Shown here piece after piece: positions 1 through 16,883 of a DNA stretch of 64,000 nucleotides (positions within the stretch are counted from its first letter, which is position 1; each line of letters starts with the position of its first letter). Under the pieces are notes generated by a model, which was given only the letters and a program-made list of their open reading frames with translations, was not told the DNA's origin and made no database searches. The DNA lies in NCBI GenBank assembly GCA_008012315.1, contig SSEL01000042.1, positions 1 to 64,000 on the forward strand. The letters are read 5' to 3'. The position numbers were made by a program, and so were the translations under genes. Source of the DNA: Rhodospirillaceae bacterium (GTDB lineage: Bacteria > Pseudomonadota > Alphaproteobacteria > Dongiales > Dongiaceae).

Positions 1-2
1 CC

Positions 3-200
3 CTTCAGGAGGCCTGTGGCACCGATCTCTCCATCTTAAATGGGGAACCGAGTTGGACGCTTACGATGCCCGCGCGCTATGTCGTCGCTCCTGACGGTAT
101 GGTCGAGTATACTGACATCAGCATCGACTATACCCGCCGCTGCGATCCGGCAGACCTCTTACCCGTCCTCAGGCATCTCAGCGCGCGGTCGAACCACTGA
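3..200 (+). CDS. Peroxiredoxin-like (AhpC/TSA) protein, C-terminal part, cut by window edge
   Basis: An open frame enters from the left edge and ends at TGA 198-200; about 65 residues are visible. It contains SWTLTMPARYVVAPDGMVEY and ends PADLLPVLRHLSARSNH. These match, residue for residue in many places, the C-terminal part of the complete peroxiredoxin-like gene that follows at 530-1246 (SWTLPMPARFVIDRAGIIAY, EPEDILPVLDFVLARS). The visible segment corresponds to the last beta strands of a thioredoxin fold, so the catalytic cysteines would lie outside the window. It is therefore a tandem paralogue of the next gene. The family assignment is by similarity to that neighbour; whether the missing part is intact cannot be seen. 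Confidence 0.7.
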   Translation, partial: LQEACGTDLSILNGEPSWTLTMPARYVVAPDGMVEYTDISIDYTRRCDPADLLPVLRHLSARSNH

Positions 201-529
201 TCCGTTGCCAACGCTGTGACCTACTCCGCCACTTCAGAACTAGTGTCCACGTTTGTCGCCTCGGTTGGATGGCGTAGCCGGCTCAATCACGCGAATTTGA
301 AAGGTGGGATGAGGTTACCCACAGCAGGTACTCCTACAGGGTTCCTTGGCGGATGGCTGCCGGTCGCGATCTTAGCAGAGTTGCCGGCACATCGGCCCTC
401 CATTCCGACGCTGCCATTCATGATTTCGACAAATAACTCTAAGTTGTCGTCGGCGACTACTGCGACCGGCTTCGGTGACCCATTCTCCATTGTATGACGC
501 ATAAGCGTCGGCGGCATGACGGAACAGAC
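201..529. other. Gap between tandem peroxiredoxin-like genes; nothing recognised
   Basis: Short overlapping open frames occur on both strands, but none has a convincing ribosome binding site or a recognisable domain. No clear terminator hairpin was found. It presumably holds the promoter of the downstream gene. Confidence 0.4.
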
Positions 530-1246
530 ATGACCATGCGCGAGGAGACCTCGGCGGCCGTATCTAAGCCACTGTGCAATTCCAAGTCCGGAGCTGTCCG
601 GACTCTTCGTGATGCGGCCGAATACCTGATCGCATCGCGCCTCGCGGAACGTGCCCTAACGGCAGGGAGCTATGCTCCAACCTTCTGCCTGCCGAATCAA
701 AACGGGACTGATGTCACGTCAGAATCTCTGCTCAGGCGCGGCCCGTTACTGCTCACTTTCTACAGCGGCACATGGTGTCCGGCCTGCAGCCTCGACCTTC
801 AGGCACTCGAAAAGATGCGTCCGGCGATCGAACAGCGCGGGGCGGCTCTCCTCAGCATTTCACAGCAAACGGTTGCGGAGAATCTGCGCGCGCAAAACCT
901 GACAATGGTCAAATTTCCAATCTTAAGCGACAGGGGCGGGAGGGTTACGTCCGAATTTGGCGTCCGCTGGCGGATTCCCGAACTGCTCCGTGAGTGCCAT
1001 AGGAACAGCGGAATAGACTTGCCATCGCTCAATGGAGAGGAAAGCTGGACCCTGCCGATGCCAGCACGCTTCGTTATCGACCGGGCTGGCATCATCGCCT
1101 ATTCGGAAATCAGCCCGGACCCGACCCGCCGTTTCGAACCAGAGGACATCCTCCCTGTGCTCGACTTTGTACTCGCGCGCAGCCAGACCGGCTCTGACTC
1201 TCGGCAGACGTGGCGAGGGTCGCGCAAAGCTCAGCTTGCTGAATAG
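530..1246 (+). CDS. Peroxiredoxin-like family protein (AhpC/TSA, thioredoxin fold)
   Basis: Predicted cytoplasmic thiol peroxidase or reductase of the AhpC/TSA superfamily, 238 residues from ATG 530. The thioredoxin-fold core starts at APTFCLPNQNG and continues into LLLTFYSGTWCPAC, which carries the active-site WCPAC with two cysteines, then SISQQT and the conserved PMPARFVIDRAGIIAY strand. I prefer ATG 530 because ACGGA precedes it at usable distance; an in-frame ATG at 494 would add 12 residues without a visible RBS. The gene directly follows the C-terminal remainder of a close paralogue, so the locus is a tandem duplication. Members of this family commonly accompany oxidative or reactive-chlorine stress genes, which fits the surroundings. 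The substrate is unknown. The GC-rich right part of the window has cleaner coding statistics than this region. Confidence 0.8.
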   Translation: MTMREETSAAVSKPLCNSKSGAVRTLRDAAEYLIASRLAERALTAGSYAPTFCLPNQNGTDVTSESLLRRGPLLLTFYSGTWCPACSLDLQALEKMRPAIEQRGAALLSISQQTVAENLRAQNLTMVKFPILSDRGGRVTSEFGVRWRIPELLRECHRNSGIDLPSLNGEESWTLPMPARFVIDRAGIIAYSEISPDPTRRFEPEDILPVLDFVLARSQTGSDSRQTWRGSRKAQLAE

Positions 1247-1890
1247 GGAGCATCGATGATCTCGAGCGACAACTCGCTGACGGTGAGTTGGGCGAGCGCT
1301 GAGTAAAGCGTAGCTGAGCGTTCTTGTTGTTTCGGTGAGCCGCTGCATCGCCCCTCAGTCGATTGTTGCTTGATACAATAAGCTGTGCGCCATCATGATA
1401 TCGAAGATCACTGCCAAGGGCGTCGTCGGCATGCTGATTACAGCACCGCGGCGCATCGCAAGGTAGTTCGATCTCGACGATTCGGCGCCGCCGGTCCGAA
1501 TGCCGACGCTGTCTCGGCGTTTCCTCAACCGACTGCCCCACCGGAGTCTCCTGGGCCATATCCACGGATAGAGGTACTGGTTCCCGACACGAAGACCGCC
1601 CGATCAATGAGTCCACGGAAGACATCAGGGATACTAGGCAGTTGGGTTGCCGGTGCTAGATTCGCGGCATTGGTCGTCAGGAAGAAGCTGTAGCAGCCCC
1701 ATCCTTCGCGGTCGCAGCGTCGTCTACACGTCACCGATTAGCCGTGCCTGAATTAGCGCTGAAAGCCGAGGAACAGATGGGGGCCACAAGAACCGGTCAT
1801 GACTGATATCAAGCTGGGCGAGGTGCGGGCTAACAACCGGCACCGCAGTATGCCCGCTCGCCCAGTCAGTGGATCTCTTACAGTCGGATG
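1247..1890. other. Non-coding or decayed stretch; nothing recognised
   Basis: Open frames on both strands here are short and resemble no family I know. A short hydrophobic frame from about 1393 stops early at TAG near 1460. Given the decayed genes nearby, this is probably eroded sequence. Confidence 0.35.
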
Positions 1891-2388
1891 CTATATAGCT
1901 CGAGGAGCACGCGTCCGAAGCGCCTCCACGAGACCCTCCGTATCGAGCTGAAAGCCGTTGTACATGACGCGGTCGTTGGGCGCGATCACAACGAACCAAG
2001 GGGTTCCACCCGAACGATATTCCTTCATGATTGCGGGCGCAGCGTCTATCGAGGTCGAGTCAGCGACAGCATGCCCGAAGGGAATAGACAGTCGATATCG
2101 TCGTTGATTTTTCCGAAGACGATCGAAAGTGTTGACCTCTCGACCCTCGAACACAGTCTGGATGGCCGCAAGACCAACTCCCTTATCGCGAAGTTCCTCC
2201 GCAAGTGTCACGAATGTGGGAAAGCCATGTGTATGACAGCCCTCGCACCAATCCTGAAAGAAGTACAGTATTTTAAAACCCTGTCCCAACTCGGCCAAGG
2301 TCAAGGGGCTACGCTCGTCGCCATTTTCATCAATCCACCGGATATGCTCGAGCGGAGGGGCTGGCAGGCCCACAATTCCTGTTACCAT
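1891..2388 (-). CDS. Redoxin/thioredoxin-like protein with WCEGCH motif
   Basis: About 165-residue thioredoxin-fold protein. The sequence KILYFFQDWCEGCHTHGFPTF places a CxxC-type motif (WCEGC) after the first core beta strand, as in TlpA/redoxin proteins; later GTPWFVVIAPNDRVMYNGF matches the cis-Pro strand (TPW) of the fold. No signal peptide is evident, so a cytoplasmic role is likely. Start choice: GGAG sits 6 bases before the ATG at 2388 (MVTGIVG); that GGAG overlaps an alternative in-frame ATG at 2400, which itself has no RBS. The gene points back toward the peroxiredoxin pair, and the neighbourhood is oxidant-related. The partner and substrate are not evident; it could equally be annotated as a TlpA-family disulfide reductase. 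Confidence 0.75.
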   Translation of the reverse strand: MVTGIVGLPAPPLEHIRWIDENGDERSPLTLAELGQGFKILYFFQDWCEGCHTHGFPTFVTLAEELRDKGVGLAAIQTVFEGREVNTFDRLRKNQRRYRLSIPFGHAVADSTSIDAAPAIMKEYRSGGTPWFVVIAPNDRVMYNGFQLDTEGLVEALRTRAPRAI

Positions 2389-2525
2389 GAAATTCTCCAT
2401 TAGTGGGCTCGCGGCGTCGCGCCGCGACAAAAGCAGCGATGCTGAGCACGCGGCGCCGCGTCAATGCTAATACAGCACCCTTGATCATGTTAGTCGACCC
2501 AGGTCTCGGCCTACGGTTCGCGTTT

Positions 2526-2550
2526 GGGACGACTGGACACCCCTTCCGGA
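2526..2550 (+). repeat. 25-bp element also found upstream of intact P460 gene
   Basis: The 25 bases at 2526-2550 match 20 of 25 bases at 3686-3710, which lies 114 bp upstream of the intact cytochrome P460 start codon. The shared core includes GGACAC and TTC-GGA. Here it precedes a P460 C-terminal remnant instead. It may be a retained promoter or operator piece of a duplicated P460 unit; this is inference from similarity alone. Confidence 0.35.
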
Positions 2551-2613
2551 TTCCGCAATTGAGTATTTGGACTAGAGTAACTCATCAATTCCTTCAATAC
2601 CCGAGTTCAGTTT

Positions 2614-2700
2614 TACAAATCAGCTCAGCGAACGGCAAAGGACGATGTCTGGAGCCAGTTCTACCGCCAGCTCGACATTGAGCCTGACGGAGGGTCTTAG
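2614..2700 (+). pseudogene. Cytochrome P460 C-terminal remnant
   Basis: The frame ending at TAG 2698-2700 reads TAKDDVWSQFYRQLDIEPDG, which aligns with the C-terminus of the intact P460 at 3824-4435 (SAKKDMVWTQFYRLLDK). The heme-binding CxxCH that should lie just upstream is lost, and no start codon or N-terminal part is present. The 25-bp upstream element at 2526 suggests an internal deletion has joined a P460 promoter region to the gene's tail. It cannot encode a functional protein. Confidence 0.65.
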
Positions 2701-3823
2701 ATTAAACGAGCTTGCGTTCAGACCGTCCCCCACGTGATGCGCAAATCGTCAATCTAAGGCCCTGTTTTCTCGAAGCGGGGCGTAAGTCTTGGCTCGTTGC
2801 CACAATATACTTACGCACGCCGTGACGCCGGCCATGGGGCGAGGACGGTCGGGCGAGCCCGATCCAATCGCCCGGTGGTGGCAGGCGAGGCCATCCGGAT
2901 TAAAGTCGGTGGCGCGGCCGGAGCAGCAAACATTTGCCCGGCGGACGGATTCATGGCCAATACGAAGCTGAGCGCCGCACGGGATAATAATGCCGAACCC
3001 GGGCTACAGAGGTGCGGGCGTCGTAATCAACTTCTGGATTCTCGCTGCATTGATGACGCTGTCTGCGTTGCAATTCTTGTGATCCCACTTTTCGAGATGC
3101 TTGGGGCGAGGGACGAAAGGGGCATGACCATATCGCGACCAACTAAGGGAAATTGGCCGAGATAACACCTTCGGTGTGCTGCCGTAAGACCTGGCCCCGC
3201 AGCGCAATTGGAAATCCAGCGCCGCATCCTGGCGCTCGCGGACGTACCGACAGCGCGCCCAGTCGAGTTCTCCACAATCGCTTTATCGCGATAACCGGCG
3301 TTCTACTGCCAATATTCGGCGTCCTCTTTTGCCCGCCGTCGCCTGCAATGTCAGCGCAGCCGTGCGCCCGCTGCAAGCGGGCGGTCGACTCCCCGCAGCT
3401 TCACGACGCAGCTGAACATCTTGCAACCAGCAAGGCGAATGTCGGTAAGGCCGTTCAGCGCTCGGAAGCACGCCTCAGCATTCAGCTCTTTCGGCGCGCG
3501 ATGCGAGCGGTCCGCCTGCGGGAAGATGGCAATATCTATGTTCAGGTCGCCCGGGCGGAATGCGCGCGGCAAAAAAACTGGCGTGCAAAAAAGAGCTTCA
3601 TTCTCGACTGACAGTGCAGTCGGCAGAGGCACAACGTGGGCATCCAACTCCGTCGTCAAAATTCGGAATCCGGAATCTGCGAACTGGGGCGACCGGACAC
3701 GCTTTCGGGACCTCGAGGTTGATTTTCTATCTTATCTATAAGCGTCGCTTCACACGACTTAGACATCACTTGTCACCAAAGCAAGCAGATGTTTTTTCAG
3801 GAATTTATTATGGGAAGAGAAAC
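2701..3823. other. Long stretch without a supported gene
   Basis: About 1.1 kb. A short hydrophobic frame near 2991-3093 (PGYRGAGVVINFWILAALM) looks membrane-spanning but ends after about 33 residues. A longer plus-strand frame at 3153-3611 has no RBS and no known domain. The copy of the P460-linked 25-bp element lies at 3686-3710. I regard the rest as decayed or intergenic sequence. Confidence 0.35.
3686..3710 (+). promoter_or_regulatory. 25-bp element upstream of P460, repeated at 2526
   Basis: Matches 20 of 25 bases of 2526-2550. It sits 114 bp before the P460 start, a distance suited to an operator or upstream promoter element. The regulator is unknown; function is inferred from position and repetition. 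Confidence 0.35.
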
Positions 3824-4435
3824 ATGACTGAGAAGCCACGGAAAAGGAAAGCATTCTGCGCAGCTTCGGCAGCATTTGTCGCGGGAATGTTAGTCGTTGG
3901 AGTTGCAGGGGCGTCTGCCGATGATGGCAGCAAGATGCCCGGGCGGTACTTGCCGGAATACACTGCTTCCGGGGAGATTAAGCTCCCCAAAAATTTCCAC
4001 GAATGGGTTTATGTCGGATCGCCACTGACGCCCAACGCCCTTAACAAGGGTAAGGCGGCTTTCCCGGAGTATCACAATGTCTATATAGAGCCGGGAGCAT
4101 ACGCTATTTACAAGAAAACGAACGCGTTTCCGGAAGATACAATCTTCGTGAAGGAGTTGCAGCTAACACAGCCAGCTGAGAATCCAGATGGATCGAGGAC
4201 CGAGCCTTCAGGGCGAGGTTATTTCCCTGGAGACTTTTACGGTGCTGAAGTGGCTGTGAAGAATTCCAAGCGATATGCTGCATCCGGCGGCTGGGGATAT
4301 TTCGATTTCAAATATGCCGACCCAAAGATGACCACTGCGAAGGTTCAAGAAAACGGTAGTTGCGCGTACTGCCACACAGCAAGTGCGAAGAAGGATATGG
4401 TCTGGACGCAATTCTACCGTCTACTGGACAAATAA
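3824..4435 (+). CDS. Cytochrome P460 family protein
   Basis: Periplasmic c-type heme protein of 203 residues. An N-terminal signal peptide (RKRKAFCAASAAFVAGMLVVGVAGASA) is followed by the conserved segment LPKNFHEWVYVGSPLTPNAL and, near the C-terminus, the heme-binding CAYCH (about residues 182-186), then MVWTQFYRLLDK. P460 proteins oxidise hydroxylamine or bind NO in nitrifiers, and related members occur in many proteobacteria with unknown roles. The ATG at 3824 has GGAAGAG upstream and starts directly at the basic signal-peptide region; the open frame extends further upstream but without coding character. Two partial copies of this gene lie at 2614-2700 (same strand) and 5385-5535 (opposite strand), so this is the surviving intact copy. 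The crosslinking lysine typical of true P460 was not located with certainty. Confidence 0.85.
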   Translation: MTEKPRKRKAFCAASAAFVAGMLVVGVAGASADDGSKMPGRYLPEYTASGEIKLPKNFHEWVYVGSPLTPNALNKGKAAFPEYHNVYIEPGAYAIYKKTNAFPEDTIFVKELQLTQPAENPDGSRTEPSGRGYFPGDFYGAEVAVKNSKRYAASGGWGYFDFKYADPKMTTAKVQENGSCAYCHTASAKKDMVWTQFYRLLDK

Positions 4436-4535
4436 GACAAAGCCTATCAGGGCAGAGGCGGGATGAGATATTCCGAAGGCAAAGATAAGTAGAATTTGAG
4501 GCAGTATTCATGGAGGGCTGATCGTGATCTGGCGA

Positions 4536-5339
4536 TCAGTCCTGCTCGATCCGCTGCTGCGCGGCCTCCCAATCGGCGATGTTGCGTCGGGCTTCCTGCA
4601 CATAAGGGCTGTAACGCACGGCGGCTAGGAACAAGTCGCCGAGCACCTTGCCGGGTTGACGCAGCGGCCGCTTGAACTGCAGGAACAGCACAACCCGGGT
4701 GTGCTCCGTGTCATTCCAGACTTCATGCGGGTAGGTGTCATCGAACACTAGGCACCTGCCCTCTTCCCAACGGAAGATCTTATCGTCCACGGCGATGCGG
4801 CAGCCTTCGGTGCCGGGCGGGATCGGTCGAGGCACGATCAAGGCAAGATGGCAGTTGATGAGGCGTTTTGAGACGCCTTGATGGCGCGGTATATGGGTTC
4901 CAGGCGCCAAGATCGAAAAAAAGGCCGTGGTCAGGCCGGGCACGCATTCAAGGGCCAAGGTGGTCTGGAGACAACGGGCACAATTGGTCGGGACGTTATA
5001 ACCGAAGCCACAAAGGAAGAAGGAGCGCCACTGCTCCCCTTTTGAAATCTCGTACTGGTCCGGCGACACGTCGTGAAAAGTGGGGATCTCCTCGCGCTTG
5101 CTCAACAGCGCTTCGACCTCGGCGCGGATCGCCGGCCAATGTCCCTCCAGATCACCGATCCATGGAAACACATCGTTGTCGAAGACGGCCGGATCGCCGA
5201 CCTCGGAATGCGCCGCCAGAATCCGGTTTAGCCAAAGTCGGAGCCTTTTAACTGCTCTGAACACCGGGCCGCGTTTCTTCTCGCGCTGTCCAGCCTGAGC
5301 CTGCATTGCAAGCTGCTGACCCGTCTCCCCTTCATTCAT
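4536..5339 (-). CDS. Aspartyl/asparaginyl beta-hydroxylase family dioxygenase
   Basis: Predicted non-heme Fe(II)/2-oxoglutarate-type dioxygenase of the AspH family, 267 residues. Visible family signatures are FFSILAPGTHIPRHQG (first metal-ligand histidine region), an INCHLALIVP strand, and CLVFDDTYPHEVWNDTEHTRV (second histidine, followed by a basic residue for the co-substrate). The C-terminus is a helical tail. Start choice: ATG 5339 has GAAGGG four bases upstream; longer in-frame starts exist to 5423, but that upstream DNA is the remnant of a P460 gene, so the real start should lie after it. Target unknown: relatives hydroxylate proteins or lipid A and ornithine-lipid acyl chains. No partner gene is obvious. 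Confidence 0.8.
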   Translation of the reverse strand: MNEGETGQQLAMQAQAGQREKKRGPVFRAVKRLRLWLNRILAAHSEVGDPAVFDNDVFPWIGDLEGHWPAIRAEVEALLSKREEIPTFHDVSPDQYEISKGEQWRSFFLCGFGYNVPTNCARCLQTTLALECVPGLTTAFFSILAPGTHIPRHQGVSKRLINCHLALIVPRPIPPGTEGCRIAVDDKIFRWEEGRCLVFDDTYPHEVWNDTEHTRVVLFLQFKRPLRQPGKVLGDLFLAAVRYSPYVQEARRNIADWEAAQQRIEQD

Positions 5340-5384
5340 TTTCCCTTCCGTCATTTCCGCGTTCCGACTGATTGCCATGCCTGT

Positions 5385-5535
5385 TCGCCGTTCGAGGTGA
5401 GAGGGGATCCGACGAAAACCCACTCATGCAAATTTTTTCGGCAGAAGAAGCTTAACGACGGAATCGTACTCGGGCAGCCACCGGCGGGAAGGCGGAGCAT
5501 CATCGGCCGCCGATTTCGCCAAATAAGCGGCAGCA
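5385..5535 (-). pseudogene. Cytochrome P460 N-terminal remnant, frameshifted
   Basis: On the minus strand one frame reads AKSAADDAPPSRRWLPEYDS and then VVKLLLPKKF before a stop. A second frame continues with NLHEWVFVGSPLTSNG. Joined across a frameshift near 5430, these align with the intact P460 (ASADDGSKMPGRYLPEY and LPKNFHEWVYVGSPLTPN). The end of a signal peptide (VAAAYLA) is still visible upstream. The remnant stops abruptly next to the start of the AspH-like gene. It is a broken third copy of the P460 gene. Confidence 0.7.
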
Positions 5536-5545
5536 ACCGAAATTC

Positions 5546-5929
5546 CACAAGTTCGTTCCACAGGCCACAGTAGTCTTGGCGTCGAGAATCCTGCCGATCA
5601 TCGAATTCTCCATCTCTTCAATGTCAGTTTGGTGCCGAGGCGCATGGTTAGTAACAGAGAGCACTGTAAGGAGGAGCGGACATCTTATGGTCCTGAATGC
5701 GTGTCCAAATGCCCACTGCTGTCTTGAGATCTGTACACTCGATCTCGTGATTATGGATGAATTAACACATATTCAGGGCTCGGGAGATCAGGCGCTCGAA
5801 TTATCCTTCGAACAGCCATTAGAGTGGCAACATCTCCGGTGCACGAGGACCGCAGACTTCGTTCGCCGGATAATTTAAAGAGCTTAGCTCCACCCGAGCC
5901 TTACACGGTTGGAGACCAGTTGGTGTCAT
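5546..5929. other. Stretch between remnants; nothing recognised
   Basis: A 100-residue open frame on the plus strand (5576-5878) has no RBS and no recognisable domain. No other signal was seen. Confidence 0.3.
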
Positions 5930-6120
5930 CCCCGCTAATCTGTTTTGGAATCTTCCGTCTAAGGCTCAAATGGGCGCGAATTGGCTCTGACGTCTTTCCT
6001 GCCTGGTGGATAAGGCCATCGGCCATCCTCACGGGCACGCTCGTTTCCTCGGTAGCGAGGATGATGCCGCTACGAGTAACATCGCCTTCTCGCCATGCCA
6101 ATACTGGGAAAGCCGCGTCA
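5930..6120 (-). pseudogene. Multicopper oxidase remnant
   Basis: The minus-strand frame at about 6116-6042 reads AAFPVLAWREGDVTRSGIIL and continues ATEE. It aligns with [20 protein letters not shown] in the intact multicopper oxidase at 14889-16361. Further along, IRAHLSLRRKIPKQIS is weakly similar to the next segment of that protein ([16 protein letters not shown]). No start, no copper-ligand motifs and no rest of the gene remain. It is a decayed fragment of a second CopA-like oxidase gene. Confidence 0.6.
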
Positions 6121-6217
6121 TCACAAGAACTTCGGCCTCGACGAAACCGAAGAGACGTTTGAAACTTCTGACCACGATAGCCATGCGGTTTCATCGGAAT
6201 CTCCGTATCGATTGACA

Positions 6218-6568
6218 TCAATTGATATCGTCAGCTCGATCCACGCAAGACGCCAACATATTCGGTATATTCTCATGTGCTGCCAGCTTAGCGATCTCCG
6301 CTTGCAACTCAGATACCGCATCGCCAAACGCTGTACAGATCTCAGCACATCGGCTCATCCTTACACGCCACAGAGAAGTTATGATTTTATATACTCTTCC
6401 ATCTAATTCCTTAGCGAGCAGATGTAGGTCGATCATTGCACTCTGCTCGACGGTAGTGAGCTGATGAAAAGGGCGCAATCGATTACTGTTGATTCCGCCA
6501 GTATATTTATCTTCCGCGTAATCCAGTACGAAGCACGATCCCTTTCGTCCGTCCTGCAGCGGCATCAT
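6218..6568 (-). CDS. Hypothetical protein, 116 residues, unassigned
   Basis: An open frame starting with two consecutive methionines and ending in CVDRADDIN. It contains a helical, coiled-coil-like segment (FGDAVSELQAEIAKLAAHEN) near the C-terminus and no signal peptide. I recognise no family. Its frame stays open upstream without another good start, and it overlaps the end of the truncated SCO-like gene by 4 bases. It may be a real small gene at the end of the DUF411-SCO transcript, or the tail of a larger gene whose front was lost. Composition is somewhat less GC-rich than the copper genes upstream. Confidence 0.35.
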   Translation of the reverse strand: MMPLQDGRKGSCFVLDYAEDKYTGGINSNRLRPFHQLTTVEQSAMIDLHLLAKELDGRVYKIITSLWRVRMSRCAEICTAFGDAVSELQAEIAKLAAHENIPNMLASCVDRADDIN

Positions 6569-6834
6569 GATCGCAACACGCTCTGGCTGGACAAGCCAAC
6601 GATACGGATCAGGATCGAAGATGTTTCCGTAGCCTCTCGTCCTAATCCGAGTAGGAGGATCACTCTCTCGCCGTCCTGAAGCACGAAATCAGGGGTGGCG
6701 CTGTCCGCCGGCTGAAAGTACTGCTCCGACCCCTTGAGTTCGTCATTGAGTTCCTGCAACGAGCGCGCCTGCGCTGGCGGTGTCACCGCCAGCGCCAGCA
6801 CGGCTGTAAGAACAATATTACGAATAGTCTTCAT
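6565..6834 (-). pseudogene. SCO-like copper chaperone, truncated after its first strand
   Basis: Starts MKTIRNIVLTAVLALAVTPP with a clean signal peptide ending in AQA, followed by an exported segment (RSLQELNDELKGSEQYFQPA) and DFVLQDGERV. This resembles the start of SCO1/SenC copper chaperones, where xPDFxLxDxxG begins the thioredoxin fold. The expected CxxxC copper site and the rest of the fold are absent; the frame runs into an unrelated tail (LLLGLGREATETSS) and stops after about 89 residues. It lies 13 bp downstream of the DUF411 gene in the same direction, as expected for a copper operon. Calling it SCO-like rests on this short N-terminal match and on context. Confidence 0.45.
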
Positions 6835-6847
6835 CGATACTGCCCGA

Positions 6848-7288
6848 TCACTCGATGGCATAGACTGTCGGCGCCTGTCCGTCTTTGGTGAAGGCGTAGA
6901 TCTTGAACGGCTCCGCTTTCATGCCGGGCATGCCGGGAGCGCCCGTCGGCATCCCAGGCAGAGTGATGCCGGCGACGGCAGGGCGCTCCTTCAGGAGTTT
7001 TTGGACAACATTCACCGGCACAAGACCATCGATGACATAGCCATCCACGAACATCGTATGGCAGCCCTCCAAGGCGGGAGGGACACCCGCATTTTCGCTG
7101 ATCTCGGCCAAGTCGTTGGTGGGCTTAACTTCAACCTTAAATCCGTTTTGCTCGAGATAGGCGGCATAGCCTTCGCAGCAGGTGCATTGGGGATTTTTGT
7201 AGAGGACGGCCTCGATGGGAGCTGCCAGTGCCGGCAGCGGCAACGAAAGAAGCGTGACAAGGGTGCCAAAACGTAATGCCGATTTCAT
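6848..7288 (-). CDS. DUF411 metal-binding protein, exported
   Basis: 146-residue DUF411 protein with an N-terminal signal peptide (KSALRFGTLVTLLSLPLPALA). The core begins IEAVLYKNPQCTCCEGYAAY, with cysteines at about 35, 37 and 38 of the thioredoxin-like metal-binding motif, then GCHTMFVDGYVIDGLVPV with a further Cys-His. A Met-rich linker (GMPTGAPGMPGMKAE) precedes the C-terminal strand. DUF411 proteins are periplasmic and are linked to copper or silver resistance operons. An AAGGAG RBS lies 8-9 bases before the ATG. It sits immediately downstream of a multicopper oxidase on the same strand and upstream of the SCO-like remnant, so it very likely belongs to the same copper transcript. Confidence 0.9.
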   Translation of the reverse strand: MKSALRFGTLVTLLSLPLPALAAPIEAVLYKNPQCTCCEGYAAYLEQNGFKVEVKPTNDLAEISENAGVPPALEGCHTMFVDGYVIDGLVPVNVVQKLLKERPAVAGITLPGMPTGAPGMPGMKAEPFKIYAFTKDGQAPTVYAIE

Positions 7289-7320
7289 AAGAGTTCTCCT
7301 TGGCTAAGCGGTTTCAAAGT

Positions 7321-8763
7321 TTATGCGACGCGCAGTACGGTCATCAGTCCAGACACCTGGTGATCCATTACATGACAATGCAACATCCAGTCGCCGGGAT
7401 TGTCGGCGACGAAGGCGCAATCGACCGTTTCCTTCGGTGAAAGAAGTACTGTGTCGCTCCATTGGTGATAGGGAACGGAAGCGCCATTGCGGCTCATCAC
7501 ACGGAAGCTATGGCCGTGAAGATGCATTGGGTGCCACCAAGCCGTCTGATTGCGGATGGAAAGGACATAGCTCTTGCCGCGCTGCAATGTGAGTAGCGGC
7601 GGCATGTTGGATTGCCCATCGCCGGTCATGGACATGCCGTTGATCGCCCAGACGGCACCGCCATCCATGCCAGGCATCGCCATGCCGTTCATGCCGCCTA
7701 TCCCGGACATCATTCCACCGCCCATCATGCCGCCTTGCAGAACGATGTCGTGCCGCTCCGCCGAGGAGAGGTCGGGCTCCGGCACGGGATTGCTCGGCAG
7801 CCGCAAAGATGCGTCCGATGGATGAGCGCGGAGCGGCGCTTCATCACCGTAGTTGAAGCGGGTCAGCGTATAGCCGAGACCGTCATAGAAGTCGTCCCTC
7901 ACGAGATAGCGACGTCCAGGATCGCCTTGCATGTCGATCACGAGGTCGACGCGCATAGCCGGCGCCAAAAGAATGCGACTATCAGCCGGTTCATGGGGTT
8001 CGCATGGCTGACCATCGATCGCGATAATGACGGGGCGATGTCCCTCGAAGCGTAAGGCCATGATGCGGGCCAGGGCGGCATTAATGAGGCGCAGGCGGAT
8101 CCGTTCGCCTGCCCGGACCGTTTGGTCACCGGGCACCTTTCCGTTCAGGGTCACCGCATTGCCAACCCGGCCGCCCATTCCGGCATCCATCATATTGCCA
8201 AACCCGGCGGCGAGCTGGCCGGTCGCCTTCAATCGCCAGTCCGACAGCACCCAAAGAAGGTCGCGATCCACGGCGACCGGCTGACGCTCCTCGACAATAA
8301 GCGCTCCTGCCAGACCGTGGCCGAGTTGTTGCAGGCTATTGGCATGGGGATGATACCAGAACGTGCCAGCATCGGGCGGCGCGAATTCGTAGATAAAACG
8401 CTCTCCCGGTTTGATGGGCGGCTGTGTCAGCTCCGGCACACCATCCATGGCATTGGGTAACCTGATGCCGTGCCAATGGACTGTCGTATCCTGATCGAGC
8501 TTGTTCTCGACGACGATCCGCATGGTCTCGCCTTGCCGCGCACGGACGACAGGGCCGGGTATCTGGCCGTTATACCCCCATACCTCCGTTTCCGAGTGGT
8601 TTGGCCCAAGCAGTTGGCTACGAGTGCGAATTGGGGCAAGTTGGTAATCGGTAGAGGAAGCCGCCCAGCTTTGAGGGCGAGGTCCGGTCGCGGCAAGAAG
8701 CAGGCCGCCACCAGCCCACAGCAATTTGCGGCGCGAGATGGACAAAGACGATATTCGATGCAC
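7321..8763 (-). CDS. Multicopper oxidase, Tat-exported
   Basis: About 480-residue periplasmic multicopper oxidase, likely oxidising Cu(I) or phenolic substrates. A Tat signal (SISRRKLLWAGGGLLLAATG) leads into three cupredoxin domains. Copper ligands are visible in order: HWHG and HPHA in domain 1, then HPMHLHGH and HCHVMDHQVSGLM in domain 3 (T1, T2 and T3 sites complete). A Met-rich stretch (GGMMGGGMMSGIGGMNGMAM) before domain 3 resembles the methionine-rich insert of CueO. Start: GTG 8763 has AAGGA 8 bases upstream and gives a short, typical Tat peptide; in-frame ATGs at 8787 and 8805 are alternatives. The DUF411 gene follows 32 bp downstream. Confidence 0.92.
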   Translation of the reverse strand: MHRISSLSISRRKLLWAGGGLLLAATGPRPQSWAASSTDYQLAPIRTRSQLLGPNHSETEVWGYNGQIPGPVVRARQGETMRIVVENKLDQDTTVHWHGIRLPNAMDGVPELTQPPIKPGERFIYEFAPPDAGTFWYHPHANSLQQLGHGLAGALIVEERQPVAVDRDLLWVLSDWRLKATGQLAAGFGNMMDAGMGGRVGNAVTLNGKVPGDQTVRAGERIRLRLINAALARIMALRFEGHRPVIIAIDGQPCEPHEPADSRILLAPAMRVDLVIDMQGDPGRRYLVRDDFYDGLGYTLTRFNYGDEAPLRAHPSDASLRLPSNPVPEPDLSSAERHDIVLQGGMMGGGMMSGIGGMNGMAMPGMDGGAVWAINGMSMTGDGQSNMPPLLTLQRGKSYVLSIRNQTAWWHPMHLHGHSFRVMSRNGASVPYHQWSDTVLLSPKETVDCAFVADNPGDWMLHCHVMDHQVSGLMTVLRVA

Positions 8764-8913
8764 GTTCCCATCCTTCGGAAACTCCATTAACCATGAAACG
8801 CTCAACCTTCTCGCCGCCGATTTTGCAGAGAGATTGGCCAGTCGCGCGACCTCAGGTGAGAGCGACGAGGTTCCAGCGATCAGTACGTGACCAACCCGTC
8901 GGCCAGTACTGTG

Positions 8914-9282
8914 CTATATGAAGGAATAGGATCTCGGAGGGGAGGGATCGGGCGCCGTCATGCGGCCTGACAGCAAAGGAGTCTTTGCTGGGTTTGTCAC
9001 AGCAAGATCGATACTCTCGACAAGTGGGAACTGATGCAGCAGCAAAGCTGCGACCGAGGCGGTGCAGAGTGAACTGCAGGTCATCCGCTGCGCCTTATTA
9101 GTCTTGCCGCAAGCGCGACAGTCACCGGAATCGGCCGAACCCGTTTGGGCTGTCATCGTCATCGAGCCTGACATCCGGCATCCGGCCATCTCATTCGCAT
9201 TGACCAATTGCAGGCTCATGCCGAGAGCGAAAAGAGCGCTCAGCGCGAAAAAGAAGATCTGTCTGATGGGGCGCAGTATCAT
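8914..9282 (-). CDS. Small exported Cys-rich protein, copper-island type
   Basis: 122-residue protein with an N-terminal hydrophobic signal or anchor (IRQIFFFALSALFALGMSLQ), then several cysteines (AGCRMSG, SGDCRACG, TCSSLC) and a second hydrophobic stretch. The C-terminus ends in a Pro-rich tail (TAPDPSPPRSYSFI). The layout, cysteine distribution and PPR-x-I tail match the protein at 16473-16883, so the two are distant paralogues, each placed just upstream of a multicopper oxidase gene on the same strand. The family is seen by me as uncharacterised, similar in style to DUF2946 proteins; a role in periplasmic metal binding is inferred from context only. Confidence 0.6.
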   Translation of the reverse strand: MILRPIRQIFFFALSALFALGMSLQLVNANEMAGCRMSGSMTMTAQTGSADSGDCRACGKTNKAQRMTCSSLCTASVAALLLHQFPLVESIDLAVTNPAKTPLLSGRMTAPDPSPPRSYSFI

Positions 9283-9489
9283 GACGCCAGCAGGATGGCC
9301 GGGTTCGCGCGTGAATTCAAGTTCGAATGAGTCCTGTGACCTTTTGCCAACTTGTGCGAACTATCCAACGCGGGAAGGTTTGGAGGCTGCCACGTTCTCG
9401 TCAGAGGAAGTTGCTTGTGTAAGATAAGGCACATCGCAGGCTGACTATGATTGTGGCGTGCCGCACTAGCTATTATCACACGCTCCAGC

Positions 9490-9637
9490 CAGCTGGCCGA
9501 GCTGGTCATGCGGATCAAAGCTTTCGACGACCGGCGAAGCGAGCGAACCTAAAAGATCCGGTCCCAGACCGTAAGCCGCTTGGCTCTCCCGATGTGGAGG
9601 CAGGCTCCAGCGGCAAACAAACACTCGGACACCGAAG
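9490..9637 (-). pseudogene. Internally deleted copy of the AraC regulator gene
   Basis: On the minus strand one frame reads SVSECLFAAGACLHIGRA, matching SARLSECLFAAGARLRIERA near the N-terminus of the intact AraC regulator at 20712. It then jumps, in another frame, to AAYGLGPDLLGSLASPVVES and FDPHDQLGQL, matching residues about 130-160 of the same protein (AAYGLGLDLFGLLASPVVES). About 90 codons between these segments are missing and the DNA-binding domain is absent. Nucleotide identity in the retained parts is high, so the duplication is recent compared with other remnants. Confidence 0.75.
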
Positions 9638-9885
9638 CATGATGTCGACCTAGATCCCACCGGGTGTTGGAGCGGAAATAGTTGCAACCAATGTGCTGTG
9701 CCGGTCAGCCCGTGAAAATTGGATTGTTGAGCGTCACTTTCTTCCTCGTAGCCTTGTCGGTACATACATATGGAAGCCCAGACGCGTTCCCAACAATTCG
9801 GGGTACATCTGGGCTTTGGCATTACGCTGGCGTCACATGAAGCCTCCAAGCACCGTCGGAGATGATCGATGCGACGGGCGAAAGT
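9638..9885. other. Gap downstream of CMD gene; one inverted repeat
   Basis: No gene is supported. AGCCCAGA at 9775-9782 and TCTGGGCT at 9808-9815 form 8-bp inverted arms around a 25-base loop. There is no T-run, so a terminator is not proven. Confidence 0.3.
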
Positions 9886-10428
9886 TCAGATCGAGCCTGC
9901 CGGCTCAACGGCCGGATAGTCCTTCTCAGGATCGAACACGTTGTTGAAAAAGTTCGTCAGGGAGTACACCGCCACCAGCGCGACGATCTCCATGACGTTC
10001 GCATCGGTGTAGCCGGCATCGCGGACGGCTTTCAGATCGGCGTCACCGATCTTGCCGCGGGTCTCGATGACTTTGCGCGCAAACTGGACGGCAGCGTCCC
10101 GCTTCGGGTCGCTGGCATGACCCTTCCGAGCGAGAATGATTTCATCGGCCGACATCTTCGCATGCTTAGCCCCAAAGCTGTGAACCGCCAGGCAGTAGTT
10201 GCAGCCATTCACTTCGGAGACGGCGAGGCTGATGCTCTCGCGCGTCTTCAGGTCGAGCGCCTTGTTCAAAGAGCCGCGCATGGTGGCCCATGCGTTGAAT
10301 GCGATCGGGCTCAGGGCGAAGGTCGCCAGCATATTGGGAGTGAACCCGATGTTCTTGGTGAAGGCATCGAGGGTCGGTTTCGAATCGTCCGGCAGCTGCT
10401 CCGGGTTTGGCACTGCGGTTCTGGGCAT
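9886..10428 (-). CDS. Carboxymuconolactone decarboxylase / AhpD-like peroxidase
   Basis: 180-residue all-helical CMD-family protein. The AhpD signature is complete: SEVNGCNYCLAVHSFGAK has the CxxC pair followed by His three residues later, with the upstream Glu (SLAVSE). Members act as alkylhydroperoxidases that use the CxxC pair, often with AhpC-type partners. Start ATG 10428 has AAGGTG six bases upstream; a GTG at 10437 overlaps that RBS and is less likely. The protein is cytoplasmic. A broken DUF417 gene lies upstream on the same strand, and such pairs are common in reactive-chlorine or peroxide response loci. It is probably the most intact member of an older detoxification operon here. 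Confidence 0.88.
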   Translation of the reverse strand: MPRTAVPNPEQLPDDSKPTLDAFTKNIGFTPNMLATFALSPIAFNAWATMRGSLNKALDLKTRESISLAVSEVNGCNYCLAVHSFGAKHAKMSADEIILARKGHASDPKRDAAVQFARKVIETRGKIGDADLKAVRDAGYTDANVMEIVALVAVYSLTNFFNNVFDPEKDYPAVEPAGSI

Positions 10429-10495
10429 GGAATTCACCTTACGTTTTCGGTTTCATTAATGTCACTCACGACTCTGAACGCTGAGTCACGGGGCC

Positions 10496-10740
10496 TCGCA
10501 CAGATGCCAAGAGACGGGAAAGCGATGCCGCCAGCAGGATAAGGTCTTTAAGAAGGACCTGGCCCGGTGCCGCCGAGATCGTCGGAAAACCGCCAGCCGT
10601 CCCCCTTCTGCTACCCCAGGAGTGCTTGAGAGGAAGGTGAGCGTAATAAGATAGGTCACAGCAGACATCGCCGCTCCCAACGCGGTGCGTATTTCCATGA
10701 TCAGCTGGGCGACGACGCCGTAGCGAGAGGAAGTCCTGCG
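10496..10740 (-). pseudogene. DUF417 (YkgB/RclC-like) membrane protein remnant, frameshifted
   Basis: The minus strand carries AVTYLITLTFLSSTPGVAEG in one frame and, 1-2 bases out of phase, GGFPTISAAPGQVLLKDLIL then LAASL. Together they align with the C-terminal half of the DUF417 family (in E. coli RclC: VTLSFLITTPEAW, then HGFPYLSGAGRLVLKDTLML). The frameshift lies near 10595-10600. The N-terminal half is not recognisable. RclC is an inner-membrane protein of the reactive-chlorine response controlled by the AraC-family RclR. The remnant therefore fits with the AraC gene and its truncated copy in this region. Confidence 0.65.
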
Positions 10741-11093
10741 CAAAACGACTATCTAACCCCGATCTTAAGCTCGCCGCGGCGGTTGATGAACGGTGACGGA
10801 GCGTCGCTAGAGATTTGAGCGATTGGTAAGCCCGCCGGTCGCCCTCGACACTCAGCTTTACCCTATGACGAATCCATTGCCTCATGGGTCCTCAATCGGT
10901 GTCCGGACGTCCGGCACTCTTCCCGGACTGCAACAGGGAGATGATCATTGCAGCGGCCGCGGAGATTGGGGGCATACGTCAGAAAGCAACTGCCGGTTAC
11001 CTTCGTTCCGTCGTGCTCACAGCCGAAGAAACGGCGGAAGTCCTCGCCGCGGGTCAGAAAACGGAATTGGCTAAAGCCGAGGAGACCTATCGG
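10741..11093. other. Stretch without a recognised gene
   Basis: An open frame runs through here on the plus strand into the LigD-like fragment (start about 10884), but its N-terminal part resembles no family. It may be unrelated DNA joined to the fragment. Confidence 0.3.
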
Positions 11094-11288
11094 ATGCCAT
11101 CTTCCTGGGTTAAGGTAAAGTGCTCGCCGCAGCAATTCTCAGCATCGTCCGGCGCGGGGTTGGCTCTCTCCTGCTGGGGCCATTACCAGGGCGGATTCCT
11201 AGTTTATAATGGCCGAGCAGGAACGGGCTTTACCCATCGAATGTCGATTGAGCTGAAGCAGATGCTAAAGCCTCTGACAATTAAGAAG
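11094..11288 (+). pseudogene. ATP-dependent DNA ligase (LigD) fragment
   Basis: The frame reads MPSSWVKVKC, then GLALSCWGHYQGGFLVYNGR and AGTGFTHRM followed by LKQMLKPL. This matches the junction of the nucleotidyltransferase and OB-fold domains of LigD-type ligases, where a W-x-K-x-K-C motif is followed by the G-x-L-x-Y-x-G-x-V-G-T-G-F motif. Neither the catalytic lysine region (xDG) nor the rest of the OB domain is present. The spacing between the motifs is shorter than usual. It is an isolated fragment of a non-homologous end-joining ligase gene, probably carried in by rearrangement. Confidence 0.6.
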
Positions 11289-11520
11289 CTCAACTTGCAT
11301 AACGTCTCGCGCGAGCATGGCATCAGGGCCGCATGCGTGAAGCTTGCTGCAGGATGTTCGGCCAAAGGAGGTCATGGATGCGCCAGTCGTTTCGGTCACG
11401 CAAAGCTTTCCTCAGCCCAGGTTCGCATCTAGGTCGCGTGGACAAATCTAATCCAGAAGACGCTTGCAGCGTCATCGTTCGCTCCGCCAGGAACCCGCGC
11501 CGCGCACGGCCGCCGAGCCG

Positions 11521-11946
11521 CTATTGCTTCGACATCTGGCCGCGGATTTCACCGTTCGGGTTTTCCTTGGTATGGATATTGACGTAGACATTGCCGGCCG
11601 CAAAGTCGGCGATCTGATCATCGGAAATCTTGGCCATACCCTTGATGGGGCTGTCAAGCGGCGCCATTATCGGGATGAGCACCGCTGCGTTCTTGCCCAC
11701 AGCAGCGGGGCCATGGAAATGCCCCGCCGTTGCCGGACCAGAAAGACCCGTGTACTCCACCGTGTAACTCAGCATCTTGAGATCGGTGTCAATCGTGGCT
11801 GTGGCGGTTCCGGTGCCCGCGGTCTTGTTCGGCGGCACTTCGGCAGCGCTGCTGAGAGTCGCATGATAGGTAATAATTTCAGCTCCCGCCGCGGCGGGCA
11901 TCAAGCAGGTGGCAAATGCGGTTAGGAGCAGAGCGGAGCGAAACAT
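11521..11946 (-). CDS. CHRD domain protein, exported
   Basis: 141-residue secreted protein consisting of one CHRD domain after a signal peptide (FRSALLLTAFATCLMPAAAGA). Family features include ATLSSAAEVPPNKTAGTGTA near the N-terminus, TAGHFHGPAAVGKNAAVLIP in the middle and YVNIHTKENPNGEIRGQM at the C-terminus. CHRD domains were defined in chordin; bacterial single-domain members are periplasmic or extracellular and mostly uncharacterised. His-Phe-His-Gly may bind metal, which would suit the neighbouring copper genes, but this is inference. Start ATG 11946 has GGGAG 8 bases upstream; an ATG 6 bases earlier is too close to it. Transcribed on its own, away from the Cu-ATPase gene downstream in coordinate order. 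Confidence 0.88.
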   Translation of the reverse strand: MFRSALLLTAFATCLMPAAAGAEIITYHATLSSAAEVPPNKTAGTGTATATIDTDLKMLSYTVEYTGLSGPATAGHFHGPAAVGKNAAVLIPIMAPLDSPIKGMAKISDDQIADFAAGNVYVNIHTKENPNGEIRGQMSKQ

Positions 11947-11952
11947 TATCAT

Positions 11953-12456
11953 ATCTCCCTGAAGAAGAAGGGCGGGTCATTCATTAAGTCAAGAAACAAA
12001 GATTCTGAGAATGTGTTCCAAAGTGCTTTCCTTCAGAGTGCCGCTGGAGCATCCAAAGCGGGCAGTATGGCTCAAGCAGGATCACACTTTCGCGCAGAAG
12101 AAAACCGACCCGCTTTGACCCAGGCGCATCAATTCCCGCGCTCCGGTGATGTGCCGGTTTTCCGTTTGCTTGGCTCCGGCTTGGATTGCGGGCAGTTCAC
12201 TGCGCCCTTGCCCAGCGCTCAGCACGCCTGATCTTTTCGCTCCTGATCGGTCTTCGCTTCTATCGCAAGTTGGTTTGCGTCGATCAACTGGTCGCACCAA
12301 AGGCAGCCATGACCGGGTCGGACGGGACGATTAACGATCAAGCATCCCGTCTATGAAATTCCTGTCTGCCACATTAGATATTCGGGCGCTCGTGCCATTG
12401 TACATTGATCCAAATCAGATTCGTGCAGATGAATTCTGCTCTCTAGTCAAGCAGAC
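11953..12456. other. Intergenic stretch; nothing recognised
   Basis: About 500 bp between the CHRD gene start and the end of the Cu-ATPase gene. Only short frames without RBS or known domains were seen. It presumably includes the CHRD promoter. Confidence 0.35.
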
Positions 12457-14859
12457 CTACAATTGGAGCCAGCGGAGCCGCAGCGAATTGCCGATGACCG
12501 AGACTGAGCTGAGAGCCATGGCGGCTGCCGCGATAATCGGCGACAGGACGATGCCGAAACTCGGATAAAGCACTCCGGCAGCGATAGGGATTCCAAGAAC
12601 ATTATAGATGAATGCCAGAAACAGGTTCTGGCGGATATTGCTCATCGTTGCCTGGCTCAGTTCACGCGCCCGCGCGATGCCAGCCAGGTCTCCCTTGACG
12701 AGGGTGACTGCGGCACTGCGGATGGCAATCTCCGTGCCGGTACCCATGGCGATCCCGACATCGGCCTCTGCGAGAGCGGGAGCATCATTGACGCCGTCTC
12801 CCGCCATGGCCACGATATGGCCTTTCTTCCGCAAGTCCTTGACCACCCTGTTTTTGTCCTCTGGCAGGACCTCCGCGACGACATTCTGAATACCAAGCCG
12901 CCGTGCTACCGCCTCGGCTGTCGTCTTATTGTCGCCGGTCAGCATCACTATGCGGATGCCGTTCTTTTCCAGCAGCTCCAGAGCAGGTTTGGTCGTCACC
13001 TTGACCGGATCGGCGACGGCGATGGCGGCAGCCAGCTTGCCCTCAATCGCCATGAACAGCGCGGTCGTGCCGTCCCCCCGCAGTTCCTCCGCTTTAGCCG
13101 ACAGGGCGGACATGTCAATACCGGCGTCCTGCATGATTTTCATATTGCCAAGCTGGACGGACTTTCCATCCACCCGGCCAGATACCCCCTTGCCGGTGGC
13201 AGAGGAAAATTCCGCGATATCCTTGAACGGCAGGTTTTTGGTGCGAGCAGCGGCCACGATGGCGGCTGCCAGCGGGTGCTCGCTGGATCTCTCGACGGAG
13301 GCGGCGATGCTGAGAGCTTCGTCGGCATTGAAGTTATTCGCCGTCACGATGGCGAGCACCTTCGGCTTGCCTTCCGTTAACGTGCCGGTCTTGTCGACAA
13401 CGAGGGTGTCCACCTTCTCCATGTGCTCCAGGGCTTCCGCATTCCTGATAAGAACACCTGCTTTGGCTCCCTTGCCGACCCCGACCATGATCGACATGGG
13501 GGTCGCCAGGCCAAGGGCACAGGGGCAGGCAATGATCAGCACACTCACGGCAGCCACCAGGCCGTGGGCCAGCGGCTGCTCGATGCCGAACCTGGCCCAG
13601 GCAATGAAGGCAGCGATGGCTATGGCGATCACCGCCGGGACGAACCACCCGGAAACGGTGTCCGCCAAGCGTTGGATCGGTGCGCGGCTCCGTTGTGCTT
13701 CGGCAACCATGGCGACAATTTGGGAAAGTACGGTGTCTGCGCCTACCTTCTCCGCCCGCATCACCAGAGATCCGCCGCCGTTGATGGTCCCGCCGATCAC
13801 TTTCGATTCCGGACTCTTCTCGACCGGTATCGATTCGCCGGTCACAACCGACTCGTCGACAGAGCTGTTGCCCTCTTCAACAATGCCGTCCACGGGTATG
13901 CTTTCACCGGGGCGGATGCGCAGCCGGTCGCCAATTGCGACAGCTTCCAGCGCGACCACCTCATCGTCGCCGCTCGCAGTCAAGCGGTGAGCGGTCTTGG
14001 GAGCCAGGTCCAGCAATGCCCGGATCGCTCCGCCGGTCTGCTCGCGGGCTCTCAGTTCCAGAACCTGCCCCAGGAGCACGAGGACGGTAATGACGGCAGC
14101 GGCCTCAAAATAGACGGGAGCTGTCCCTTCGGGTGTTCGGAAGCCGCTTGGAAAGGTGTCCGGAAACACGACGGCCGCCACGCTATAAATGTAGGCCGCA
14201 CCGGTCCCCAGGGCGATCAGGGTGAACATGTTTAGGTGACGCGTCACGAGCGAGATGGCGCCCCGCTGGAAGAAAGGATAGCCGCCCCAAAGGACCGCAG
14301 GTGTCGCAAGGCCGAACTGAACCCAGAGCGCGATTTTGGGGTCGATCCATTGATGGATCATCAGGCCGGGGATGTGGCCTCCCATTTCCAACACCAGAAC
14401 CGGCAGAGTAAAGACCAGGCTGATCCAGAACCGCCGGGTCATATCGATCAGTTCCGGGTTCGGCTTCTCTTCCCCGACGGCCACCAGAGGTTCGAGCGCC
14501 ATGCCGCAAATCGGGCAGTTCCCAGGCTTGTCCTGACGAATTTGCGGGTGCATGGGGCAGGTGTAAATCACGTCCGCCTTCGACTCTGGTTTGGCTTGGC
14601 CGGGCGTCAGGTAGGCTTGCGGATCGGCCTCGAACTTCTGCTTGCACTTGGCACTGCAGAAATGAAAGGACTTCCCTCTATGGACCAGCGAATGAGATGT
14701 CGTCGCTGGATCGACCGTCATGCCGCAAACGGGATCTTTTACCGTCGTATGGCTATCATGTGCACCGGAGGCATGGTCATGCTGGTGATGGTGGTGTTCC
14801 TGCTTCACGATGGTGCCTTTCGGTTCGAATGCAAGGATTTTGGCGATCGACCGTTTCAT
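12457..14859 (-). CDS. Copper-translocating P1B-type ATPase with YHS and metal-binding N-domains
   Basis: 800-residue inner-membrane Cu exporter. The N-terminus holds a His-rich stretch ([18 protein letters not shown]), a YHS domain ([10 protein letters not shown] with FHFCSAKC) and a short heavy-metal-binding domain ([20 protein letters not shown], about residues 98-117). Then come eight predicted membrane segments with the CPC motif ([13 protein letters not shown]), the phosphorylation site [11 protein letters not shown], the SSEHPLA nucleotide-binding motif and [10 protein letters not shown]. It exports Cu+ to the periplasm at the cost of ATP. Start: the ATG at 14859 lacks an RBS; GTG 14808 has AAAGG upstream and could be the true start, which would still include the His-rich stretch. 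It follows the multicopper oxidase by 29 bp on the same strand, so the pair is co-transcribed. Confidence 0.93.
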
Positions 14860-14888
14860 CGGTCGACCGCAAGCGTCAGAACTCCGCT

Positions 14889-16361: not shown

Positions 16362-16472
16362 GATCACCCTGTTCATCTGAAGAGCCAGATGGGGAACTGA
16401 TGACTCCGTTCCCTTGGACTAGCTGATAAAAGAGCCTCCACCATAGAGCGAAAGGCGGCTCAATCCGGTATT

Positions 16473-16883
16473 TCAGATAAACTGGCGCGGAGGCCTTAAA
16501 CTTGGCGCTGGACGCAAGCCCTGGCCGGTCGCCGAAGCGGAGAGTGGCTTGATGCCTACCGTAAGGCTCGGTAGCGGGATGGCCACCGCCATTAACGCGA
16601 CGATCTGCACCATCGAGCATGGAGCGCCAAGACAGCAAGCTGCCTTCGGTGCCTTCCCATGGCTACAAAGGTCGACATCGCCGCTATCGCTTGGCTGGGC
16701 AGTATGATGCCCCATCATTGCCGAACCGTAACCGCTCGAGCAATCGGCAGTACGGATAATCCCGGCATGTGCGTGGCCTGTCTCGGCATTTCCGATTAGT
16801 GGAAGCAAGACAAAACCCGTTGCGGCCAGCACAACGGCCAAAGTTCTGAATAGACGCCAAACTACGAGTTGCATGCGATGCAT
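16473..16883 (-). CDS. Small exported Cys/His protein, copper-island type
   Basis: 136-residue protein with an N-terminal hydrophobic segment (FRTLAVVLAATGFVLLPLIG), a central Cys/His part (DCSSGYG, MMGHHTAQ, DLCSHG, ACCLGAPC) and a second hydrophobic segment (VQIVALMAVAIPLPSL). The C-terminus is Pro/Arg-rich (APSLRPPRQFI). It resembles the protein at 8914-9282 in layout and in the C-terminal tail. It lies 112 bp upstream of the multicopper oxidase on the same strand and may be its first operon gene. An ATG at 16874 is an alternative start. No function is known to me; periplasmic metal binding is a reasonable guess. Confidence 0.6.
   Translation of the reverse strand: MHRMQLVVWRLFRTLAVVLAATGFVLLPLIGNAETGHAHAGIIRTADCSSGYGSAMMGHHTAQPSDSGDVDLCSHGKAPKAACCLGAPCSMVQIVALMAVAIPLPSLTVGIKPLSASATGQGLRPAPSLRPPRQFI

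Follow-up and report, generated by a model that had tools for sequence, protein, structure and literature searches.

Probable birth and death in a cytochrome P460 gene family: an intact gene and two remnants in a relative of Dongia

The closest described systems to the locus reported here are the cytochromes P460 of Nitrosomonas, represented by the structures of NeP460 (PDB 2je2/2je3) and of NsP460 from Nitrosomonas sp. AL212 (PDB 6amg), and the cytochromes c'-beta such as McCP-beta (PDB 6hih), which share the fold family and the CxxCH motif but, as stated in the available parts of PMC6427953 and PMC11928373, have neither the cross-linking Lys nor the carboxylate. The available part of PMC11928373 also reports that active NeP460 carries Glu96 and active McP460 Asp102, that the exchange Glu96Asp abolishes the activity of NeP460, and that replacing the distal Ala of NsP460 by Glu confers activity while replacing it by Asp does not. 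In titles and opening lines of abstracts of the literature on cytochrome P460 we found no account of decay of the kind described below or of a heme-supply neighbourhood, a result that concerns those titles and abstract openings and does not amount to saying that none has been published.

The stretch of DNA that was analysed (the window) comprises bases 1-64000 of contig C70, which belongs to a draft genome totalling 5.72 Mb in 93 contigs, other contigs being designated here in the same way. In its first 6 kb a P460 family can be seen turning over, an intact gene standing beside truncated copies and a probably deleted one. Three P460 loci were found in it:

3824..4435, forward strand: intact cytochrome P460 gene, 203 aa, with PF16694, heme motif and structure matches
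2629..2679, forward strand: C-terminal P460 remnant, AKDDVWSQFYRQLD..., its open frame continuing to a stop at 2698-2700; 14.3 bits
5387..5540, reverse strand: N-terminal P460 remnant, interrupted by one frameshift and by a stop in frame, RWLPEY... / ...NLHEWVFVGSPLTSN; 20.1 + 9.4 bits

The intact gene and its catalytic residues

The product of 3824-4435 matches PF16694 (Cytochrome_P460) with 97.1 bits (E 1.3e-27; Pfam cut-off 27), the sole Pfam family above cut-off, and the top seven matches of the protein in a search of solved structures were all cytochromes P460 (E 4.7e-40 to 5.3e-38), with cytochromes c'-beta ranking far below them. The protein begins with a signal-like stretch and carries CAYCH, a c-heme motif of the CxxCH type, near its C-terminus (residues 180-184 of 203). 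Lys110 occupies the heme cross-link position and aligns with Lys106 of the AL212 protein (numbering taken from the available part of PMC11928373); both this Lys and CxxCH occur in every one of the 58 aligned P460 rows, and the hydrophobic residue that replaces Lys in cytochromes c'-beta is not found in the window protein.

At the distal position, where a carboxylate is needed for hydroxylamine oxidation, the window protein has Glu142. Asp is the residue in 53/58 rows of the alignment and Glu in the other 5/58, which are the window copy, three rows of one distant clade and the engineered chain 6e17; the window protein therefore differs from its own-genome paralogues, having Glu instead of the usual Asp. 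Because Glu142 fits the residue data for NeP460, McP460 and NsP460 in the available part of PMC11928373, the window protein looks catalytically competent on paper. Most likely it is an exported c-type heme protein of the cytochrome P460 class that is matured by the Ccm system, for which a lysine-heme cross-link through Lys110 is predicted, and its predicted reaction would be the oxidation of hydroxylamine (or handling of NO) to N2O/NO with Glu142 as proton acceptor.

The P460 family across the genome and its selection

The search for further copies that the sequence-only reading had called for was carried out at the protein level over the whole genome, and it returned intact P460 genes on four contigs (C70 3824-4432, C35 41000-41584, C32 8489-9004 and C25 5925-6440, the coordinates being match limits of this search); together with a custom profile described below, remnants were placed on three (C32, C26 and, as the two scraps of the window, C70). 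The remnant on C32 lies at 5795-6066 and gave 50.8 bits at 5792-5902 with this profile, plus two further pieces in other frames. That on C26 (11497-11637; 14.5 bits with the same profile) has a frame that encodes a signal-like stretch, then RYLPEHTASGD, and shortly after that meets a stop, and a divergent AraC gene adjoins it; because AraC-type genes also occur in 18/58 of the relatives' P460 loci (this cluster being labelled by eye), the stretch on C26 resembles a defunct P460 locus with its regulator retained. A query with a P460b-type second gene found the four intact genes alone, and such a gene was rejected as a source of the scraps on the same ground, nothing else having been matched.

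The claim that only one copy is under selection proved wrong at the level of the genome: the copies on C32 and C35 differ by a dN of 0.048 and a dS of 0.522, on account of which both are judged to be under purifying selection. For the window gene, dN to the nearest relatives is about 0.29-0.32 (0.286 to Dongia) with dS saturated. When the Dongia gene was allowed to drift neutrally to 69% DNA identity, an open frame was left in just 5 of 2000 runs, and amino-acid identity averaged 44% with a maximum of 53%, against an observed 68% over query residues 21-202. Since neutral simulation so rarely keeps the frame and falls well below the identity observed, the window gene is judged to have been under selection for most of its history. 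Its branch is nonetheless long (1.34 against a median of 0.084, in a poorly resolved tree with 25/54 inner branches open), and it departs from the consensus at 13/97 sites conserved at >=90%, which ranks it second in a comparison of 51 rows (without the PDB chain and six rows that were outgroups or duplicates), with counts of 4/96 for the copy on C32 and 3/96 for that on C35. Such a fast branch could mean that the window copy, too, is starting to decay. A more far-reaching proposal is that it has broken away from its paralogues and been neofunctionalised, the 13/97 altered sites and the change of the catalytic Asp to Glu marking a Nitrosomonas-like hydroxylamine oxidase or an enzyme with a new substrate; we consider this quite improbable.

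A Nitrosomonas-like oxidase, as predicted there, would adjoin a copper-resistance cluster in a bacterium that is not known to be a nitrifier. This cluster (window 6848-16883) contains a DUF411 protein and a multicopper oxidase, named from their matches, together with two members assigned by eye, a heavy-metal P-type ATPase and a further multicopper oxidase, and it has counterpart stretches on C49 that are 70-75% identical. When bases 1-9000 were compared with a plasmid collection, relatives were found for the 6848-8594 part alone (DUF411, multicopper oxidase). Within the cluster, 9493-9631 resembles an AraC-type gene region at 20794-21194 in two of its parts, over short inverted stretches (89-92%), and is likely an AraC-gene remnant.

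The P460 locus on C32 (970-9031) has a neighbourhood of its own, comprising a second ccm set (CcmH, thioredoxin-like, CcmF, CcmE and CcmC-like) and a second 5-aminolevulinate synthase, the genome's other CcmF being on C62 and its other 5-aminolevulinate synthase on C58. An ALAS-like gene occurs in 15/58 of the relatives' loci, and ALAS-like together with ccm-like genes in 11/58 (flanks of up to 6 kb, labels by eye). From its gene content this locus looks like a cassette for heme supply and cytochrome c maturation dedicated to P460. C32 also carries an inverted repeat of ~120 bp (10133-10253 and 15750-15868, 78% identical), and a translated stretch similar to it (ACRPA..ADRPMSE) occurs in C27 as well, perhaps as a dispersed repeat.

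Remnants and copied segments in the first 6-7 kb

The two scraps were identified with a custom profile made from the P460 proteins of 52 relatives, own-genome copies excluded, which was run in all six frames over the window and four further stretches of the genome. The C-terminal scrap (2629-2679, forward strand) scored 14.3 bits over the 17 profile positions 223-239. The N-terminal scrap was detected as two pieces on the reverse strand, one at 5430-5540 (profile 57-94, 9.4 bits) and the other in another frame at 5387-5443 (profile 90-108, 20.1 bits); as these continue each other in profile order, they are collinear with one frameshift between them. Beyond genes and remnants, the best match in the searched DNA reached 7.0 bits. 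Shuffling gave chance maxima of 10.2 bits (whole window, 30 shuffles) and 10.9 bits (bases 1-9000, 600 shuffles), and none of the 600 attained 14.3. Pfam-A, by contrast, names neither scrap as P460 at an E limit of 10, the top match of the C-terminal scrap being an unrelated splicing-factor model (E 0.016), and the whole-genome protein search retrieved the N-terminal scrap (E 0.009) but, at E 10, not the C-terminal one. At the DNA level, the C-terminal scrap matches the genes of C32, C35 and Dongia over 40 bp at 80-82.5% identity, and the N-terminal scrap matches 3989-4037, inside the intact gene, over 49 bp at 77.6%.

With the custom profile both scraps thus combine above-chance similarity with loss of the frame or of most of the gene, as pseudogenes do, while Pfam-A alone misses both, so that the profile test to which the sequence-only reading had exposed its remnants comes out in their favour with the custom profile and against them with the stock one. 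We accept both as P460 remnants, the C-terminal one with less certainty, and the arrangement of one intact and two broken loci holds, on PF16694 for the former and on scores above the shuffles for the latter. Further P460 sequence was also sought at 1500-1900, at 2700-3560 and around the scraps and was rejected: the z of 6.3 at 1500-1900 reflects a gappy chance alignment, this stretch fitting C32 intergenic DNA far better than P460, and because the same gapped-DNA scoring yields such a value for a clearly different stretch, z values for the origin of the scraps call for caution.

Other features of this part of the window are as follows:

1689..1699, reverse strand: probable deletion scar, both flanks matching the C32 P460 locus, whose ~800-bp P460 stretch is absent
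3387..3530, forward strand: LysR-type helix-turn-helix remnant (PF00126, E 3.2e-6), upstream of the intact P460 gene
4536..5423, reverse strand: aspartyl/asparaginyl beta-hydroxylase gene (PF05118, E 1.4e-47), between the intact P460 gene and the N-terminal remnant
2525..2550, forward strand: 26-bp element, copy 1 (weak), a pairwise match with 21/26 identical
3685..3710, forward strand: 26-bp element, copy 2 (weak); its end lies 113 bp upstream of the intact gene

Parts of the window's left edge repeat the C32 P460 locus in reverse orientation at 88-96% identity, with window 1-249 matching C32 12829-12580 (96%) and window 407-1300 matching C32 12099-11200 (89%). To the left of the scar, window 1617-1689 corresponds to C32 9122-9050 (86%); to its right, window 1699-1788 corresponds to C32 8243-8132 (65%, a weakly supported match). 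The C32 P460 gene (8396-9031), which lies between these counterparts, is absent at the scar; window 1-1788 is accordingly homologous in parts, reversed, to C32 8132-12829 minus its P460, and a P460 copy was probably erased by deletion at 1689/1699. The homology between C32 and C35 stops at C32 9049 and that with the window starts at 9050, which would suit a sharply bounded mobile P460 cassette; this was rejected because C35 retains similarity, seen by eye, beyond C32 9049, and the cassette-like edge reads as divergence in C35 combined with deletion in the window.

Parts of segment 2203-5159 recur on C27 with order and orientation unchanged, the Asp-hydroxylase and thioredoxin-like pieces being duplicated there in identical order. 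Copies of the Asp-hydroxylase at 82% are found on C10 and C27, and since homology to other copies stops at 5349, the true start of this gene probably lies further downstream than the GTG listed for it. Over 63 bp, 6052-6114 matches a multicopper oxidase gene region at 15367-15429. Given the counterparts on C32 and C27, the hydroxylase copies, the LysR remnant and this oxidase match, we read the first 6-7 kb of the window as a patchwork of copied and decaying pieces.

An upstream element of 25 bp had been described as kept at the first two loci. The pair exists, but its retention is weakly indicated: its score was attained by 2/1000 shuffles of the two chosen regions and by 27/3000 and 34/3000 real random segments of the same genome (~1%). 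No match of its strength lies above the other P460 genes of this genome (C32, C35 and C25), and above the P460 genes of 49 relatives there was no excess over control stretches, which led to its rejection as a P460 operator; its 17-base core has 29 sites in the genome and the reversed control pattern 30.

As regards the origin of the scraps, the DNA alignment to the intact gene proposed in the sequence-only reading gave 40.3 for the N-terminal scrap, ahead of Dongia (38.2) and of C32 and C35 (~32), and 21.6 for the C-terminal scrap, behind Dongia (29.1) and C32 and C35 (26.9 each). By these scores a local copy of the window gene would explain the N-terminal scrap and not clearly the C-terminal one. 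The two scraps cover non-overlapping ends of the protein (profile 223-239 and 57-108), lie in the relative orientation that a single inversion would give and have no trace of the middle part beside them where this was searched, and it is possible, though we rate it somewhat below even, that they come from a single P460 gene, which an inversion of ~2.7 kb (roughly 2614-5386) cut in two and which lost its middle. This orientation would, however, arise by chance half the time, and the thioredoxin-like and Asp-hydroxylase pieces, of which one lies outside and one inside the supposed inversion, keep their relative orientation on C27, so any inversion must be older than their duplication.

The account first proposed, in which the window's own gene was duplicated locally and repeatedly with one copy inverted, draws on the best score of the N-terminal scrap and on the element common to the first two loci, but the C-terminal scrap is nearer to the genes of C32, C35 and Dongia, about 1% of real segments score as well as the element, which is missing elsewhere, and the family is dispersed over the genome, which leaves this account unlikely. 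Duplication and decay survive from that proposal; 'local' does not, with the family on several contigs, and 'inversion' comes down to a difference in orientation alone. Two inverted duplicates and one inversion-split gene both fit what is seen, and the same-orientation block on C27 decides for neither. A reading of the scraps as coincidental similarity, or as short motifs common to cytochromes, would accord with the silence of Pfam and with the mere 17 profile positions of the C-terminal one, but is very improbable given 0/600 shuffles at 14.3 bits, two collinear frame pieces in the N-terminal scrap and DNA matches of both to P460 genes.

Turnover of the family and comparison with described systems

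Taken together, these results very probably reflect a P460 family undergoing birth and death genome-wide, with the window as one stop within it. Segments with P460 and redox neighbours (peroxiredoxins, a thioredoxin-like protein, Asp-hydroxylase, a CHRD-like protein, and AraC and LysR regulators) would have been copied between places in the genome, and several extra copies later deleted or truncated, an order of events that we infer from the present arrangement. In the window, 3824-4435 would be the survivor, one or two copies would be left as the scraps 2629-2679 and 5387-5540, and one would have been deleted at 1689/1699. Against this stands the fact that the scraps need not derive from the window's own gene, the C-terminal one being nearer to the genes of Dongia, C32 and C35, and that they are short and missed by stock Pfam. 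The kind of event is ordinary, being gene-family birth and death and genome decay. The point of interest that can be tested is the Glu at the distal carboxylate of a fast-evolving survivor: the Asp/Glu contrast among the paralogues of one genome offers a natural test of the claim, as made in the available part of PMC11928373, that it is the exact carboxylate on which hydroxylamine activity depends.

P460 gene pairs are known from Bradyrhizobium, Dongia and others, and most of the first genes in these pairs share 57-71% identity with the window protein. In 44/58 of the relatives' loci P460 is followed directly downstream by a second gene with weaker P460 likeness, and none was detectable in this genome with the P460b query; the genome has lost it or never had it. 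Cytochrome c'-beta (6hih) matches the window protein weakly (E 9e-5), and the window protein has both the Lys and the carboxylate that distinguish P460 from it. Unlike the Nitrosomonas enzymes, the window enzyme is known from its gene alone, in a Dongia relative that has several paralogues and is not known to oxidise ammonia. Its likeness to those enzymes extends over residues 38-201 (E 4.7e-40 to 6e17 and 5.3e-38 to 2je2), with the same Lys, the CxxCH near the C-terminus and a conserved Phe80, and, like active NeP460 as described in the available part of PMC11928373, it carries Glu at the distal carboxylate.
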